Shown: positions 120-35,151 of the stretch, piece by piece
How the letters are laid out: the number at the start of each line of letters is the position of its first letter
How positions within the stretch are numbered: the first letter of the stretch is position 1
Assembly: GCA_015062805.1 (NCBI GenBank)
Contig: SUTQ01000008.1
Coordinates: 1-64,000 of the forward strand
Source: Methanosphaera stadtmanae
Lineage (GTDB): Archaea > Methanobacteriota > Methanobacteria > Methanobacteriales > Methanobacteriaceae
Direction of reading: 5' to 3'
Length of the DNA stretch: 64,000 bases
Translations under genes and position numbers: made by a program
Notes under the pieces: generated by a model
What the model saw: only the letters and a program-made list of their open reading frames with translations
What the model was told of the DNA's origin: nothing
The model's database searches: none

Positions 120-3100
120 GTGATTAAAATGAAGAGAATAAAACAGGTAATGCTGTTTACTGCACTGCTGATACTCCTAATAGGAGCCGTAACTGCAAGC
201 AACACAACCAATACAACAGTTACAAATGAAGAAACACAGACAGCATTACAAGATACAACACAAGTATCACAAACAGACACAACACAAGAAAAAAACAACA
301 ATAATAATAAAATTATAATGAATACAAAACAGGAAACACCCACAACAAAAAACATACAAAAAAACACCAACAAAGCCAACACAAAAACAGAACCAGAAAA
401 AACAGTAAACAACTGGAACGAACTAAATAAAACAATAAACGCTTTAACAGAAAGCACAACCATAACACTAAACCCCGGAACCTACACAGCAGAAGGACGA
501 ATTGACTGGGAAAATAGAAAAATAATTCTAACAATTGACGGAAACGGACAAACAATAAACGCAAACCAACACCAAGCATTTTACATCCAAAGGGGAACCA
601 CAGTAATCCTAAAAAACATCATCATAACAAACGCCACAAACAATGGTGGAGATGGAGGAGCAATATACAACAGTGGAAACCTAACAATAACCAACACCAC
701 ACTACAACACAACACCGCAACAGATGATGGAGGAGCAATAGACAACAGTGGAAACCTAACAATAACCAACACCACACTAAACAACAACACCGCAACAGGT
801 GATGGAGGAGCAATATACAACAACAAAGGTGGAACAATAACCATAACCAACCACACCACACTACAATACAACACCGCAGAATGGGGAGGAGCAATAGAAA
901 ACTCTGGAACAATAACCATAACCAACCACACCACACTACAACACAACACCGCAACAAGCTATGGAGGAGCAATAAACAACAACTATGGTGGAACAATAAC
1001 CATAACCAACCACACCACACTACAACACAACAACGCAACATGGGGAGGAGCAATAGACAACAACTATGGTGGAACAATAACCATAACCAACACCACACTA
1101 CAACACAACACCGCAACAAACTATGGAGGAGCAATAGACAACAACTATGGTGGAACAATAACCATAACCAACACCACACTACAACACAACACCGCAACAA
1201 GCTATGGAGGAGCAATACGCAACTATGGAACAATAACCATAACCAACACCACACTACAACACAACACCGCAACAAACTATGGAGGAGCAATAGACAACTC
1301 TGGAAAACTAACCATAACCAACCACACCACACTAAACAACAACAACGCAACACGGGGAGGAGCAATAGACAACTACTTTGGAAATACCAGCATCTACAAC
1401 TCCACACTACAATACAACACCGCAACAAGCTATGGAGGAGCAATATACTACTGGACAAGCCAAGGCTCTGATACTTTGGTTGTGTTATATAATTCAACGT
1501 TCACAGAAAACAAGGCAACAAACGGAGCAGTAATCCAAAACGAAGAGGGATATGGAAAATATAACATTACATTCAACAAATTCCAACAAAACAAGGCAAG
1601 CAATGATAAAGAAACATTAAACCTTGGACCAAACATCATAGATGGAAGCATAATAGAAGATAACACATATGAAAACACAGATATCCGCATAGAAAATATC
1701 CTAAAAATCCCCGATGGAAATACAAAATACACAACAGATGATGAAATAACACTAAACTTCACAATAAAACTGGAACACCCAGAATACTATGACGAGGACA
1801 TATCAGAAAAAATCAACCTACAAACAATAGACAAAACATTATACATCAACGGTCAGGAAAACATAACAACAAACGAAAGAAATCACACACTCAAAGAATT
1901 AATACCAAACAAATATGAAGTATACTTTATCGCAGGTAACCAACAATCAAACACAATAACATTCACAGTTACAGGAGATTCACAAATAAAAACAGACAAA
2001 GACAACTACGAACACTACACTGGCATAAAAAACACGATAACACTAAACATCACAGACCCAAGCAAAGAAAACGGAACAATAAACATACAAATAAAAGAAG
2101 ACAATACATACAAAGAATTATTAAGATATCATAACGTACACGATGGTTACACGTTAACAACCGATACAATTATAGATGCACTCAAGAACATATACACAAA
2201 CCTGGAAGACGCATACACCATAAACATAACATACAACAACAGTTACGTAAATCCAAGTTCAACAGAATTCACACTAAACATTACCAAACAAAGAAACACC
2301 ACAATAACATACGACATCCTAAATAATACCGAAGGAAACGTGCAAATAAACATAACAGTACTGGATGCAGTATATAACACGCCAATAAATGATGCCACAA
2401 TCAACATAACAGGAGACATCAACCAAAATACCACCACAGGAATAATCACAGACAACACACTAACAACAGGAAACCACAACATAAAAATACAATACCAGGA
2501 AACACCAGAATACAAAGAATCCCAAGTAAACATAGATTTCACAGTAGAAATAGACAAAAACAAAAAAATACTGGAACTTGAAGAAGAAATAACAAACCTA
2601 ACAAGCAAACTGGAAGAAGCACAACAAACAATAACCATACTAAACAACAGCAACAAAGACTTAACAAGACAACTTGAAGAAGCACAACAAGAAATAACCA
2701 CACTCGAAAACATAAAAAACAACCTAACCAGACAACTTGAAGAAACAAAAGAAAAACTAGAACAAACACAACAGGAACTCAAAACACAACAAAACACCAA
2801 CAACGAACTAAACAAACAACTAGAACAGGCACAACAAAACATAACCACACTCGAAAACAAAATAAACAACCTAACAAAACAACTCCAAGAAGCACAACAG
2901 GAAATAACAACACTAGAAAACACCAACAACAACCTAACAAGTCAAATCAACGACAAAAATAAACAGATAGAACAACTCAACAAACAAATAGAAGAACTAA
3001 ACAAACAATTAGATAACCGAAACAATAAAATTGAAGACCTTAACAACAAAATAAAAAACCTAACACAACAACTCGAAGAAGCACAAACAGAAATACAAAC

Positions 3101-4553
3101 ACTCAAAAACACCAACACAAACCTAACACAACAAATCAACAAAAACAACAAAGAAATACAACAACTCAACAACAAAATAGATGATCTAAATAGTCAACTA
3201 GATGAAAAAGATAATGAAATTGATGACTTGAACACTAAAACAGACAACCTAACACAACAACTCGAAGAAGCACAGGCAAAAGTAGAAAGCCTCAAAAATG
3301 CTAACAAAAACTTAACACAACAAATCAACAATAACAACAAAGAAATCGAACAGATCAACAAACAAATAGAAGAACTAAACAAACAACTCAACAAAAAAGA
3401 TAACGAAATCGAAACACTAAACAATAAAACAGACAACCTAACACAACAACTAAAAGAAGCACAAACAGAAATAGAAACGCTTGAAAACAACAATCAGGAA
3501 GTAAACAAACAACTCTCACAGGCACAACAGGAAATAACAACACTGGAAAACACCAACAACAACCTAACAGGACAACTAAAACAGGCAGAAAAAGAAATAG
3601 AAATACTAAACCAAATAATCGATGAACTGATAAACAAGAAACCATTACAGACCACAATCACAATCAACCCAATAAAATCAAGCATAGGATCAATAACAAC
3701 ATTAACAGCCAACATAACAGACAAAAACGGAAACAAAGTAACCGGCGGAAAAACAGTATTCAAAGTTAACGGAATAACACTCAAAGACAAAAACAACAAC
3801 GTAATCTACGCACGCGTAAACAATGGCCAGGCAAGCATAAACTACAAAGTACAGGACGTATGGATAAAAAACACATCATACATTGAAGCAGTATACAGTG
3901 GAACAAATAACTACACCGAAGCAAGAACCAAAGCAACAGATGTCTTAGATATCAGCCAGGGAATAGCCAAGATAACTCTGGATAAACAGACGGTAACTGC
4001 AAAGTCCGGAGAAACACTAACATTCAGAGCAAAAATAGTTGACGCCGCAGGCGATAACATCAACAAGGGAAAAGTGGTATTCAAACTCAACGGCAAAACA
4101 CTAAAAGACACAAACGGAGAAACACTATACGCACAGGTAAAAGACGGAGAAGCAGTACTTGACTACACCATACCAGGCATATACAGCGCCAAAACATACA
4201 CACTAACAGCAGTATACGGTGGAGGAAACTACCAAAGAGCAGAAACAAACGGCACACTCAAACTAGAAAGAAAAGCAGTAACAATAAACACCGACAGCAT
4301 AACCACAACAAACGCTAAAACAACAATAAAAGCCAAAATCAGAGATGAAACAGGAAAACTACTCATAACCAACACCAAACTAGCAATAAAAATAAACCAG
4401 AAAACAATACTAAACAACATCACAAGCACAAACGGCATAATAAACCTCTCATTTACCACAACACTCAGACCGGGAACCTACGAACTAACAATAATCAGCG
4501 GCGAAAACAGCATATACAAAAAAGGAACACTAAACACAGTACTAAAAATATAA
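120..4553 (+). CDS. Adhesin-like secreted protein: beta-helix, coiled coil, Ig-like repeats
   Basis: Giant cell-surface protein of the methanogen adhesin-like class, probably binding host or neighbouring cells. A signal peptide occupies about residues 4-28 (positive start, hydrophobic core, Ala-Ser). A Thr/Gln/Asn-rich linker follows. About ten tandem units with the core GGAI(Y/D)N then LTITNTTL mark a parallel beta-helix (residues about 175-445). After a less repetitive part comes a coiled coil (about 812-1175) with NLT sequons, then three Ig-like (Big_3-type) units to the end. No C-terminal membrane anchor or pseudomurein-binding repeat is visible, so wall attachment is unexplained. Start is ambiguous: GGGAG at 107-111 fits the GTG at 120, whereas GTGAT at 120-124 could serve as Shine-Dalgarno for the ATG at 129. 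Function is inferred from domain architecture only. Confidence 0.9.
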   Translation: MIKMKRIKQVMLFTALLILLIGAVTASNTTNTTVTNEETQTALQDTTQVSQTDTTQEKNNNNNKIIMNTKQETPTTKNIQKNTNKANTKTEPEKTVNNWNELNKTINALTESTTITLNPGTYTAEGRIDWENRKIILTIDGNGQTINANQHQAFYIQRGTTVILKNIIITNATNNGGDGGAIYNSGNLTITNTTLQHNTATDDGGAIDNSGNLTITNTTLNNNTATGDGGAIYNNKGGTITITNHTTLQYNTAEWGGAIENSGTITITNHTTLQHNTATSYGGAINNNYGGTITITNHTTLQHNNATWGGAIDNNYGGTITITNTTLQHNTATNYGGAIDNNYGGTITITNTTLQHNTATSYGGAIRNYGTITITNTTLQHNTATNYGGAIDNSGKLTITNHTTLNNNNATRGGAIDNYFGNTSIYNSTLQYNTATSYGGAIYYWTSQGSDTLVVLYNSTFTENKATNGAVIQNEEGYGKYNITFNKFQQNKASNDKETLNLGPNIIDGSIIEDNTYENTDIRIENILKIPDGNTKYTTDDEITLNFTIKLEHPEYYDEDISEKINLQTIDKTLYINGQENITTNERNHTLKELIPNKYEVYFIAGNQQSNTITFTVTGDSQIKTDKDNYEHYTGIKNTITLNITDPSKENGTINIQIKEDNTYKELLRYHNVHDGYTLTTDTIIDALKNIYTNLEDAYTINITYNNSYVNPSSTEFTLNITKQRNTTITYDILNNTEGNVQINITVLDAVYNTPINDATINITGDINQNTTTGIITDNTLTTGNHNIKIQYQETPEYKESQVNIDFTVEIDKNKKILELEEEITNLTSKLEEAQQTITILNNSNKDLTRQLEEAQQEITTLENIKNNLTRQLEETKEKLEQTQQELKTQQNTNNELNKQLEQAQQNITTLENKINNLTKQLQEAQQEITTLENTNNNLTSQINDKNKQIEQLNKQIEELNKQLDNRNNKIEDLNNKIKNLTQQLEEAQTEIQTLKNTNTNLTQQINKNNKEIQQLNNKIDDLNSQLDEKDNEIDDLNTKTDNLTQQLEEAQAKVESLKNANKNLTQQINNNNKEIEQINKQIEELNKQLNKKDNEIETLNNKTDNLTQQLKEAQTEIETLENNNQEVNKQLSQAQQEITTLENTNNNLTGQLKQAEKEIEILNQIIDELINKKPLQTTITINPIKSSIGSITTLTANITDKNGNKVTGGKTVFKVNGITLKDKNNNVIYARVNNGQASINYKVQDVWIKNTSYIEAVYSGTNNYTEARTKATDVLDISQGIAKITLDKQTVTAKSGETLTFRAKIVDAAGDNINKGKVVFKLNGKTLKDTNGETLYAQVKDGEAVLDYTIPGIYSAKTYTLTAVYGGGNYQRAETNGTLKLERKAVTINTDSITTTNAKTTIKAKIRDETGKLLITNTKLAIKINQKTILNNITSTNGIINLSFTTTLRPGTYELTIISGENSIYKKGTLNTVLKI
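640..1450 (+). repeat. Tandem beta-helix coding repeats
   Basis: Roughly ten imperfect direct repeats of about 66-84 bp, each containing GGAGGAGCAATA followed by AACAATAACCATAACCAACA-type sequence and CACACTACAACACAACACCGC-like sequence. They encode beta-helix coils. Identity between some neighbours is high enough for recombination to change copy number. The bias also opens long non-coding frames on both strands here. Confidence 0.85.
2556..3640 (+). repeat. Repeats encoding the glycosylatable coiled coil
   Basis: Degenerate repeats encode heptads in mostly 21-residue blocks of the form NNLTxQLEEAQQEITTLEN. Each block usually carries an N-L-T sequon, the acceptor for archaeal N-glycosylation. 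The block separates the beta-helix head from the Ig-like part like a stalk. Confidence 0.75.
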
Positions 4554-6790: not shown

Positions 6791-7104
6791 GTTAATTATC
6801 CCACCATCAATAATATGTTTGTTCAATTTATGAAAACCCATTCATCAAAATAATAAAAATTTTTTAAAAAAATATTATTTTTCTATAAATAATAACAAAA
6901 TTAATACATTTAATTTAAAATTAATTATTAAACTATTAAATTCTTTATAAAGTAGTATCTTATAAAAAATATAAATAATTATGTATTTTAACAGAACTAA
7001 ATAATCAATCCTCTTTTTCAAAGAAAAAAAATAAAAAGTATTAAAAACATATTATTAGTATTATATAAAAATTATTTATTAAAGAAAAAAATGGTGTGAA
7101 AAAT
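6791..7104. other. Intergenic region, no gene seen
   Basis: About 310 bp of very AT-rich sequence between divergent genes. Several TATA-like stretches are present, none clearly placed. It ends with GGTG at 7093-7096, the ribosome-binding site of the GTPase. Confidence 0.4.
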
Positions 7105-8202
7105 ATGTCCGCAGCAGAAGATAGAATTAAACAGATAGAAGAGGAAATTAAAAAGACTCAAAAAAATAAGGCAACATCACACCATATTGGTAAACTTAAA
7201 GCACAAATTGCACAATTAAAGGAAAAAATAGAAAAACGTAACAGTTCTTCAACAAAAGGGGAAGGATTCTTAGTCAGAAAAAGTGGAGATTCAACAGCTG
7301 TATTGTTAGGTTTCCCGTCCGTAGGTAAATCCACCATTTTAAACTACCTGACTAACGCTAATTCCAAAGTTGGAGCATACGAATTTACAACATTGGATAT
7401 CGTTCCAGGTATCATGGAGTATGAAGACGCTAAAATCCAGATATTGGATATTCCGGGAATAATTAAAGGTGCAAGTAAAGGAAAAGGAAAAGGTCGTGAA
7501 ATTTTATCTGCTACAAGAAATGCGGATTTAATTATTATGGTTTTAGATGTGTTCCAACCGGAACACATGGACGTGATTCTAGAAGAGGTAAGGAACATTG
7601 GAGTAAGACCTAATGAAAAAAGACCTGAAGTGAAAGTTTCCAAGAAAAAAATGGGTGGATTAAACATAGTATCTACCGTTGAATTAACCCACTTGGATGA
7701 AAAAACAATTCATTCAATCCTTAGTGAATATGGTATTCACAGTGCAGATGTTGTGTTAAGAGAAGATGTAACCATAGATAGGTTTATTGACGCAATGGAA
7801 CCTAATCGTGCATACATACCAATGACAATAGTTGTTAATAAGATAGATTTGGCAAGTGAGGAACAACTTGCAGAACTAAGAAAAAAATTACCTAATGCAC
7901 TGTTTGTATCAGCAGATGATGGTATAATGATGGAAGAACTTAAGGAAAGAATATTTGTAGATCTTGATTTGATTAGGTTATATTTGAAACCGCAAGGAAA
8001 AAAAGCTGATATGGACGAACCATTAATTATAAGAAAAGGTTCAACCATTGAAGATGTTGCCCGTAAGTTACATAGGGATTTTGTAAAGAATTTCAAATAT
8101 GCAAAAGTCTGGGGTAAATCTGTTAAATTCCCTGGACAAAAAGTAGGGTTAGAACATGTTTTAGAAGACCACGATGTTGTTAGAATCATTATTAAAAAAT
8201 AA
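7105..8202 (+). CDS. drg: Obg/DRG-family GTP-binding protein with TGS domain
   Basis: Cytosolic GTPase of the archaeal/eukaryotic DRG branch, thought to act with translating ribosomes. The 365-residue length is typical. A basic helical N-terminus carries the family's [19 protein letters not shown] stretch. G1 is GFPSVGKST (residues 69-77), G3 is DIPGI, G4 is NKID and G5 is SADDG. The C-terminal 75 residues form a TGS domain ([18 protein letters not shown], ending [11 protein letters not shown]). I chose the ATG at 7105 rather than the GTG at 7096: GGTG at 7093-7096 is a good ribosome-binding site for 7105, and homologues begin near MSxxEKI. Monocistronic. Confidence 0.95.
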
Positions 8203-8289
8203 AAACTTAAAATACAATTAAATTTTAATAGTTATAATGTAAAGTTTAATGAAAATGTACCACAATATATATTATACTTTAACACAACT

Positions 8290-8376
8290 ATTAATTGTAC
8301 CCACAGAACAAAATATTTTTTAGATTGTGATAAACATATAATTTCTATATAATGATAATTATATAGTCACAGTTAT
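8290..8376 (+). ncRNA. Candidate structured RNA, copy 1 of a twin pair
   Basis: An AT-rich TATA box (about 8265-8273) lies 26-27 bp upstream of TAATTGTACCCACA (8292-8305). The segment folds on paper: P1 pairs UAAUUGU (8292-8298) with ACAGUUA (8369-8375, one G-U), P2 pairs CACA with UGUG (8326-8329), and P3 is a 9-bp hairpin (8345-8366, GATA loop). A T-run follows at 8377. No ORF. The same arrangement recurs 290 bp downstream with a different P3 sequence, which argues for structural conservation. The class is not recognised. Confidence 0.5.
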
Positions 8377-8579
8377 CTTTTTTTGAATTATTATTTTCGG
8401 TTTTATAATATATTATTTCGGTTTGAAAATATTATTTTAAAACAAATAAATGTTATTTGATTCATTTACAAAAAATCGTAATTATTCGTGTTAAATCTAA
8501 CTTTTAAAATCAGTTTACTATTTTTAATATAACTTTAATTAAATATTAGATAGTATATATAAGACCCTTATTACAAAGA

Positions 8580-8653
8580 ACTAATTGTACCCACAAATAC
8601 ATATAATTATTTTTAAACTGTGCTGTGAATTTTTATTCACTAGTCACAATTAT
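8580..8653 (+). ncRNA. Candidate structured RNA, copy 2 of a twin pair
   Basis: TATATATAA at 8554-8562 is followed after about 20 bp by TAATTGTACCCACA (8582-8595). P1 pairs UAAUUGU with ACAAUUA (8645-8651), here with no wobble; P2 pairs CACA (8592-8595) with UGUG (8619-8622); P3 is a perfect 6-bp hairpin GTGAAT/ATTCAC (8625-8640). U-rich sequence follows. Shared single-stranded motifs with copy 1 are the ACC after P1 and TC before the closing strand. The rest of 8203-8863 holds no gene I can support. Confidence 0.5.
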
Positions 8654-8863
8654 TTTATTTTTCTTTGAATTTTTTTATTAAACTATTTATTAAAGTAGTA
8701 TTATCTAAAAACTTAATTTTTCAGAATTAATATTAAAGCAATTATTAATAATTACGAGTTAGTATTTATTAATAACCAAATTAATAATAATGTATAGAGA
8801 AGTTTGTAATAACAAACATTTTCAACAAATACAATAAATCATTTTCATAATTTTGTAAGGAAT

Positions 8864-9571
8864 CTAAATTGAATCACATAAATTTATAAATTCAATTTGG
8901 AAATTTTCTTTTTTTAAGTTATCAATTAATTTTTTAGCGTAACACAATTTTTTTTTCTTAAACGAATCCGCTACTTTGAATTCTACGCCGATTTCCGGTC
9001 TAGAATAATTAGTAATAATGTTTCCAAAATCCATTCCCGCCAAGATGATTTTTTCAACTTTTAATGCATAAACCGCTATGTGAACTGCCCTGTCTCCATC
9101 AGTAAATCCACCATAATTTTCCAAGTTACCAAATGATCTACATTGACAAGTAGGAACAACTTTATTCAATTCATCAAGATAACTTTTTAACTTATCAAGA
9201 TTATCACCATGTGCATGAACATACAATATGGAACCCAATTTGTTTGATTTGAAGATACTCTCAATATCACCATCCAAGTCTGTTACAATTATATCCGGAA
9301 CAATAGATTCTTCAAGCAATGCTTTTGTTGTGCCATCAGCAGCAATCAAAGTATAATCTTTTAGATTAACATTGCGTTTAAGATAAGCAATATGTTTTTT
9401 AATTGAAGGTCCTGCCCCAAAAACAATACATTGATGCTTGAAATCTATATGAGACATATCAAATTTAGAAACTTTTTCATTTAAATATCTAGCACTTTCA
9501 ATATCATCCTCTTCTTTAAACGAAAAATCATCCAAAATAATTTTGTACCATTTATCCCAATTATTATACAT
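8864..9571 (-). CDS. mptE: 6-hydroxymethylpterin diphosphokinase MptE-like protein (DUF115)
   Basis: Enzyme of tetrahydromethanopterin synthesis that pyrophosphorylates 6-hydroxymethyl-7,8-dihydropterin in archaea. The 235-residue chain shows the DUF115 signature: VFGAGPSIKKHI near residue 48, IAADGTTKALLE, VPDIIVTDLDGD (acidic metal-binding cluster) and GGFTDGDRAV, ending KIILAGMDFG. I use the ATG at 9571; the GTG at 9580 lies inside GTGAT, which fits a Shine-Dalgarno four bases upstream of that ATG. Neighbours are unrelated. The assignment rests on family motifs, and archaeal MptE is the best-characterised member. Confidence 0.85.
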   Translation of the reverse strand: MYNNWDKWYKIILDDFSFKEEDDIESARYLNEKVSKFDMSHIDFKHQCIVFGAGPSIKKHIAYLKRNVNLKDYTLIAADGTTKALLEESIVPDIIVTDLDGDIESIFKSNKLGSILYVHAHGDNLDKLKSYLDELNKVVPTCQCRSFGNLENYGGFTDGDRAVHIAVYALKVEKIILAGMDFGNIITNYSRPEIGVEFKVADSFKKKKLCYAKKLIDNLKKENFQIEFINLCDSI

Positions 9572-9804
9572 TAAAATCACGTAAACATTATCTAAATAAA
9601 TATATCTAATTATGAAACAAATAATTATATCTTTTCTTGAAAGGAAATGATTTTCCCATACATTAAAAAACTATTAAATACAAATAGAATAACATAGTAA
9701 GTTTAGTAATTATTATGTATACAATGTACAAGTATATTAAAACTAGCCTTATTATATTTTAAATAAACGTTTATAAAAAATATATATTTGGAGGAATATT
9801 CCCA

Positions 9805-35096: not shown

Positions 35097-35151
35097 GTAA
35101 TTATATAACACTACCCACATTAATTAAAAAATAAAAAATGGAGAAAAAATA

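Follow-up and report, generated by a model that had tools for sequence, protein, structure and literature searches.

Two short intergenic elements of Methanosphaera stadtmanae probably encode members of a genus-specific family of trans-acting antisense small RNAs, which would control the methanol methyltransferase by pairing with the leaders of mtaB (methanol:corrinoid methyltransferase) mRNAs. As the 8-letter seed near the 5' end of these RNAs exactly complements a leader site of every intact mtaB examined, they most likely control this enzyme by base pairing. The elements lie in tandem in a stretch of 64,000 nucleotides (the window) from a genome of 2.1 Mb (G000), with the following features:

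7096..8202, plus strand: upstream neighbour, DRG-type GTPase gene with MMR_HSR1 and TGS domains (Pfam, synteny)
8266..8274, plus strand: TATA box of copy 1, at about -26 (from the sequence)
8292..8384, plus strand: small RNA copy 1, transcript predicted to run from TAATTG to the T-run (R1 covariance match, syntenic homologues)
8296..8305, plus strand: UGUACCCACA of copy 1, with the core UACCCACA at 8298-8305 as the proposed seed for mtaB leaders
8323..8330, plus strand: 5' strand of the conserved stem (GAUUGUGA), copy 1 (covariation)
8335..8345, plus strand: CAUAUAAUUUC block, copy 1, which complements the mtaB Shine-Dalgarno/start region GAAAUUAUAUG and doubles as the 5' strand of the inner hairpin
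8367..8374, plus strand: 3' strand of the conserved stem (UCACAGUU), copy 1 (covariation), followed by the T-run at 8378-8384
8554..8562, plus strand: TATA box of copy 2 (from the sequence)
8582..8670, plus strand: small RNA copy 2, predicted transcript with approximate 3' end (R1 match)
8586..8595, plus strand: UGUACCCACA of copy 2, with the core UACCCACA at 8588-8595
8599..8609, plus strand: ACAUAUAAUUA block, copy 2, complementing AAUUAUAUG at the mtaB start
8618..8651, plus strand: copy 2 stem CUGUG...CACAAUU around a GUGAAU/AUUCAC hairpin (fold z -2.8 to -3.2, covariation)
8864..9580, minus strand: downstream convergent neighbour, gene for an MptE-like protein (Pfam PF01973, synteny)

Occurrence and location of the elements

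An earlier note, made from the letters of this DNA, had proposed twin small RNAs here, and both segments are real. TAATTGTACCCACA opens each copy (8292-8305 and 8582-8595) and has only these two exact 14-mer matches in the window; ACAGTTA or ACAATTA lies downstream, and a hairpin and a T-run close each copy. The covariance model R1, consisting of 28 copies, matched copy 1 at 8292-8379 with 83.6 bits and copy 2 at 8582-8656 with 51.6 bits.

Comparison between genomes shows that the pair goes far beyond chance, with the elements recurring at the same locus across the genus. R1 matches were found in 18 of 20 Methanosphaera genomes. One of the two genomes missed (G016) has a longer, divergent copy in the same place, with a CUUGUACCCACAGAA start and a UUGUGACAU/AUGUCACAUU stem, which brings the number of genomes with the element to 19 of 20; the other (G018) is an assembly that lacks both flanking genes. 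Several of the genomes compared are incomplete MAGs. The note had made its proposal depend on covariance matches in related genomes, and within the genus these were abundant, while the R1 search detected no element in 118 other genomes of the family. Copy 1, used as a DNA query, likewise matched most members of the genus. A pattern scan of GTDB contigs returned nine Methanosphaera/Methanobacteriaceae contigs and three single matches in unrelated MAGs (L247, L251 and L258, from Aquificales, Bifidobacterium breve and Oscillatoriales, respectively), the latter being probably due to chance or contamination.

The copy number ranged from one to three per Methanosphaera genome, the third being a tandem copy in G003 and G014 (L018:2266-2347 and L019:1893-1971). 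In the 11 genomes that were read closely, copy 1 comes after the DRG-type gene and the last copy adjoins the mptE-like gene. These two genes have become separated by an inversion in G009 (and, by coordinates, in G019) and lie on different contigs in G004, and each copy keeps its own neighbour, which argues that each copy is autonomous. The loci in which the DRG-type gene and copy 1 were moved or inverted away from mptE and copy 2 are L065 (G009), L046/L057 (G019) and L066/L067 (G004). The DRG-type gene of other genera has another gene or a spacer after it, and no such element. The deepest member of the genus, G016, has a single small RNA of about 230 nt (L097 = G016:C103:7000-7700, minus strand), with an extra hairpin, TTGATTC/GAATCAA, between the seed and the main stem. 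Elsewhere in the window, positions 120-4553 encode a large repeat protein, rich in Asn and Thr and coiled-coil-like over a long stretch; it resembles adhesin-like proteins of gut methanogens.

Transcription signals, structure and RNA class

The TATA boxes that the earlier note had placed 26-28 bp before each segment are present and are a feature of the family. A TATA-like hexamer was found at -36..-20, typically -26 to -28, in 30 of 32 distinct copies (shuffling gives an expectation of about 7), and a T5 run comes after the stem in 30 of 32. At the level of sequence signals, each copy therefore has the promoter and terminator of an independent intergenic transcription unit, and we infer that each would be transcribed separately into an RNA of about 75-95 nt that ends in a 3' hairpin and T-run.

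Single-sequence folds of the copies are of modest stability only. The structure was judged from 33 distinct homologues. The hairpin AAUUGUGA/UCACAGUU with its variable inner stem was paired in 94.7% of cells and reached a covariation score of 0.119 compared to 0.050 for shuffled alignments, with 0 of 500 shuffles reaching the observed score; 7 pairs were changed on both sides, in 18 cells. As this alignment had been fitted to the model, it is biased in the model's favour. An independent MAFFT alignment ranked the folds in the same order, its members having been chosen by a pattern requiring the seed and stem core. Copy 1 of G011, found outside that pattern, changes UGUGA/UCACA to AGUGA/UCACU.

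The fold proposed previously was a different one. The window copies allow its 7-bp closing stem UAAUUGU/ACARUUA to be drawn, but the conserved helix is another one. Together with P2 (CACA/UGUG), this closing stem scored 0.045 against 0.048 for shuffled alignments of the same 33 homologues, and the one pair changed on both sides was equalled by 487 of 500 shuffles. The observation that the ends of the twin genes are conserved and the inner hairpin is variable holds. As the conserved helix is the AAUUGUGA/UCACAGUU hairpin and the closing stem lacks covariation, the 5' segment is predicted to be left single-stranded, with an unpaired probability of 0.72-0.74 for the seed in the predicted fold. 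The conservation of this segment would then be explained by its being unpaired and probably target-binding. UACCCACA is present in 33 of 34 aligned copies, the exception being one G004 copy with UACUCACA.

The earlier note recognised no known RNA class, in agreement with Rfam 15, in which no family reached the gathering threshold for either copy and only a tRNA-Gln was detected in the whole window. Three classes were considered and rejected. A C/D box guide RNA would have boxes C (RUGAUGA) and D (CUGA) near its ends, but neither is conserved in the alignment and there was no snoRNA match; an H/ACA guide RNA would have a hairpin with a pseudouridylation pocket and kink-turn, and ACA three nt from the 3' end, but here the ACA is part of the stem, with UUA and the T-run after it, and again no match was obtained; and the next gene, mptE-like, is convergent on the minus strand, which excludes a riboswitch-like cis-regulatory leader. 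The combination of a conserved, apparently unpaired seed with complementarity to a conserved mRNA site encoded elsewhere is that of a trans-encoded base-pairing sRNA.

A conserved complement of the seed in mtaB leaders

The seed complement TGTGGGTA occurs 47 times in this genome and is not enriched genome-wide (47 compared to 68 for a reversed control), so the signal is one of position and conservation and not of number. Two of the 47 sites are distinguished by lying between genes, in sense orientation and a short distance before a coding sequence, which in both cases is mtaB. A protein search was then used to gather mtaB across the genus, and the leaders were read regardless of the motif. Each of the 24 distinct leaders in which the start was intact had AUGUGGGUAUA 26-44 nt ahead of the start codon, as did a 25th, from G016, which was found through the motif. 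Across these 25 leaders the 11-nt block is invariant (2.0 bits per position), whereas the flanks have diverged, mostly to below 1.5 bits. TGTGGG was absent from the 400 nt upstream of six mtaB genes of two other genera that do not have the small RNA. Conservation of the seed together with its site is thus a result of the comparison.

A search for the seed complement followed by a Shine-Dalgarno sequence and ATG gave 38 matches in 13 genomes, 27 of which were mtaB leaders and the others scattered. In three genomes, the only recurrent classes of intergenic TGTGGGTA were the small RNAs, the mtaB leaders and a site behind nikR; possible singleton sites, such as window positions 35112-35119, did not recur. 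Four mtaB leaders of downstream genes in clusters (L156:4278, L171, L178 and L180) have no clear TATA box at the usual spacing and carry upstream an imperfect inverted repeat, AAGTATTA...TAATACTT, possibly an intra-operon terminator or processing site.

Duplexes between the 5' 32 nt of the two copies and the two mtaB leaders of this genome were calculated at -16.3 to -18.6 kcal/mol; of 42 window genes, the best gave -12.6 kcal/mol. The energies are unusual to a moderate degree only, with 4, 14, 11 and 40 of 1000 dinucleotide-shuffled leaders pairing equally well, and the case for pairing is made mainly by conservation and not by energy. As the seed and its site are both near-invariant, compensatory changes between RNA and target cannot be scored.

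The invariant A before UGUGGGUA in the mtaB motif is unaccounted for by sRNA pairing. It would be explained if the motif were a translational leader, as it reads AUG UGG GUA UAA (Met-Trp-Val-stop), with the AUG present in 25 of 25 leaders and the complete mini-ORF in 22. The match to the small RNA would then be secondary or coincidental. We consider this very unlikely, since three leaders have no stop after Val, the AUG is not preceded by a Shine-Dalgarno sequence, and neither the complement in a genus-specific small RNA and in the nikR 3' UTR nor the joint absence of motif and RNA from outgroup mtaB genes is explained by it.

The main rival explanation, which is improbable though less so than a mini-ORF, is a DNA operator. 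A transcription factor would bind A/Y-TGTGGGTAYAA at the transcription start of mtaB, in inverted orientation at the small-RNA genes and also behind nikR, with no RNA-RNA pairing. The motif does lie about 32-38 bp after the TATA box in both type I mtaB promoters and small-RNA genes, and the opposite strand of the nikR copy gives the same 12-mer, ATGTGGGTATAA. However, the motif is also kept by several downstream mtaB copies in clusters that have no TATA box at that distance, and the nikR copy, which in several species is in a hairpin loop, does not lie in an evident promoter. The strand relation is constant, with the small-RNA sense always the complement of the mRNA sense, and the variable position has G or A in the small RNA opposite U, either of which can pair. 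These features fit antisense pairing between RNAs, which we therefore continue to favour.

The site behind nikR

UACCCACA itself, in the sense of the small RNAs, was found 10-42 nt past the stop codon in 15 of 17 Methanosphaera nikR genes (L259-L274, e.g. L261:1936-1943); the exceptions are G007, with one mismatch, and G016, which lacks the site. G009 has two copies behind nikR. The usual extended form, UUAUACCCACAU, exactly complements AUGUGGGUAUAA, and this match takes in the A to which the small RNA offers no partner. In several species the site lies within a hairpin loop. This hairpin is suggestive only: pairing of the flanks gave a combined z of -5.8 against mononucleotide shuffles, and 7 of the 16 fell below z -2; elsewhere in the same AT-rich region, however, pairing is equally good.

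The presence of the same single-stranded or loop motif in two unrelated RNAs could also point to UACCCACA being the site of an RNA-binding protein, with the small RNAs and the nikR 3' UTR acting as protein sponges or scaffolds and the pairing with mtaB being incidental. Such a site does not predict an exact complement that is invariant in all mtaB leaders, and there is very little to recommend this explanation over antisense pairing. With pairing as the preferred reading, the nikR 3' UTR would probably take part as a competitor or as a third pairing RNA. The nikR mRNA may pair with mtaB mRNA, may give rise to a small RNA or may share a protein partner. A three-part network, in which UACCCACA is exposed by the small RNAs and the nikR 3' UTR alike, with competition for, or joint action on, all mtaB leaders, is put forward tentatively, with slightly more doubt than belief. 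If it is true, nickel status would be coupled to the synthesis of methanol enzymes through RNA in an obligate methanol-reducing archaeon.

A second complementary block and a possible mode of action

The small RNAs carry a second block that can pair with the Shine-Dalgarno/start region of mtaB. In copy 1, CAUAUAAUUUC is the exact complement of GAAAUUAUAUG, the stretch from the Shine-Dalgarno sequence to the AUG, which is present in 16 of 25 mtaB genes compared to 0 of 42 other gene starts; this 11-nt match was reached by 7 and 5 of 2000 shuffles. The match of ACAUAUAAUUA in copy 2 is weaker (9 nt; 65 and 59 of 2000 shuffles), and the G016 small RNA lacks the block. Both RNAs have the two blocks in the same order, which rules out a single continuous antiparallel duplex, and joint use of the blocks would need two sRNA molecules or a kissing arrangement. 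The second block is likely a secondary contact, which would explain how initiation could be blocked.

In the proposed mechanism, the single-stranded 5' end would expose UUGUACCCACA and pair with UGUGGGUAUAA in every mtaB mRNA leader. Pairing in the leader would anchor the RNA, and pairing with the start region would block initiation; repression is somewhat favoured over stabilisation. MtaB output would most likely be set by these RNAs upon a change in methanol or H2 supply.

Relation to known systems and significance

The closest functional precedents, judged by analogy, are two small RNAs of Methanosarcina mazei. sRNA162 is also an archaeal small RNA that acts in trans and has a single-stranded stretch for target binding, and it affects the switch between methanol and methylamine methyltransferases; however, its direct target is the mRNA of a regulator (MM2441/MM2440), whose ribosome-binding site is masked, and methyltransferase genes are not predicted to be direct targets (PMC3510493). 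For the Methanosphaera RNAs the predicted target is the methyltransferase mRNA itself, and the likeness is functional, with no shared sequence or gene context being claimed. sRNA154 is likewise intergenic, conserved and confined to its genus, and it pairs with mRNAs of a central metabolic pathway, acting by stabilisation or by masking of ribosome-binding sites; its seeds are in loops and its targets belong to nitrogen fixation (reviewed in PMC5867862), whereas the Methanosphaera RNAs have the seed in a predicted single-stranded 5' end and occur in tandem copies. RNA-based control of methanol methyltransferase genes has also been proposed from mtaB/mtaC antisense transcripts in Methanolobus psychrophilus, which are cis-encoded (PMC5378194), while those described here are trans-encoded and intergenic, with a short seed. 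A search of a literature collection with limited coverage of subscription journals returned no report of small RNAs in Methanosphaera or of any small RNA pairing with an mtaB leader.

Methanosphaera lives only by reducing methanol with H2. Its mtaB transcripts increase strongly in the rumen after feeding (reviewed in PMC10658910). A small RNA directed at all mtaB copies would give methane formation from methanol in the gut a post-transcriptional control point. To our knowledge, few archaeal small RNAs have known targets. With a named predicted target, a defined seed, natural tandem copies and a clear pattern of presence and absence, the Methanosphaera RNA is directly testable.
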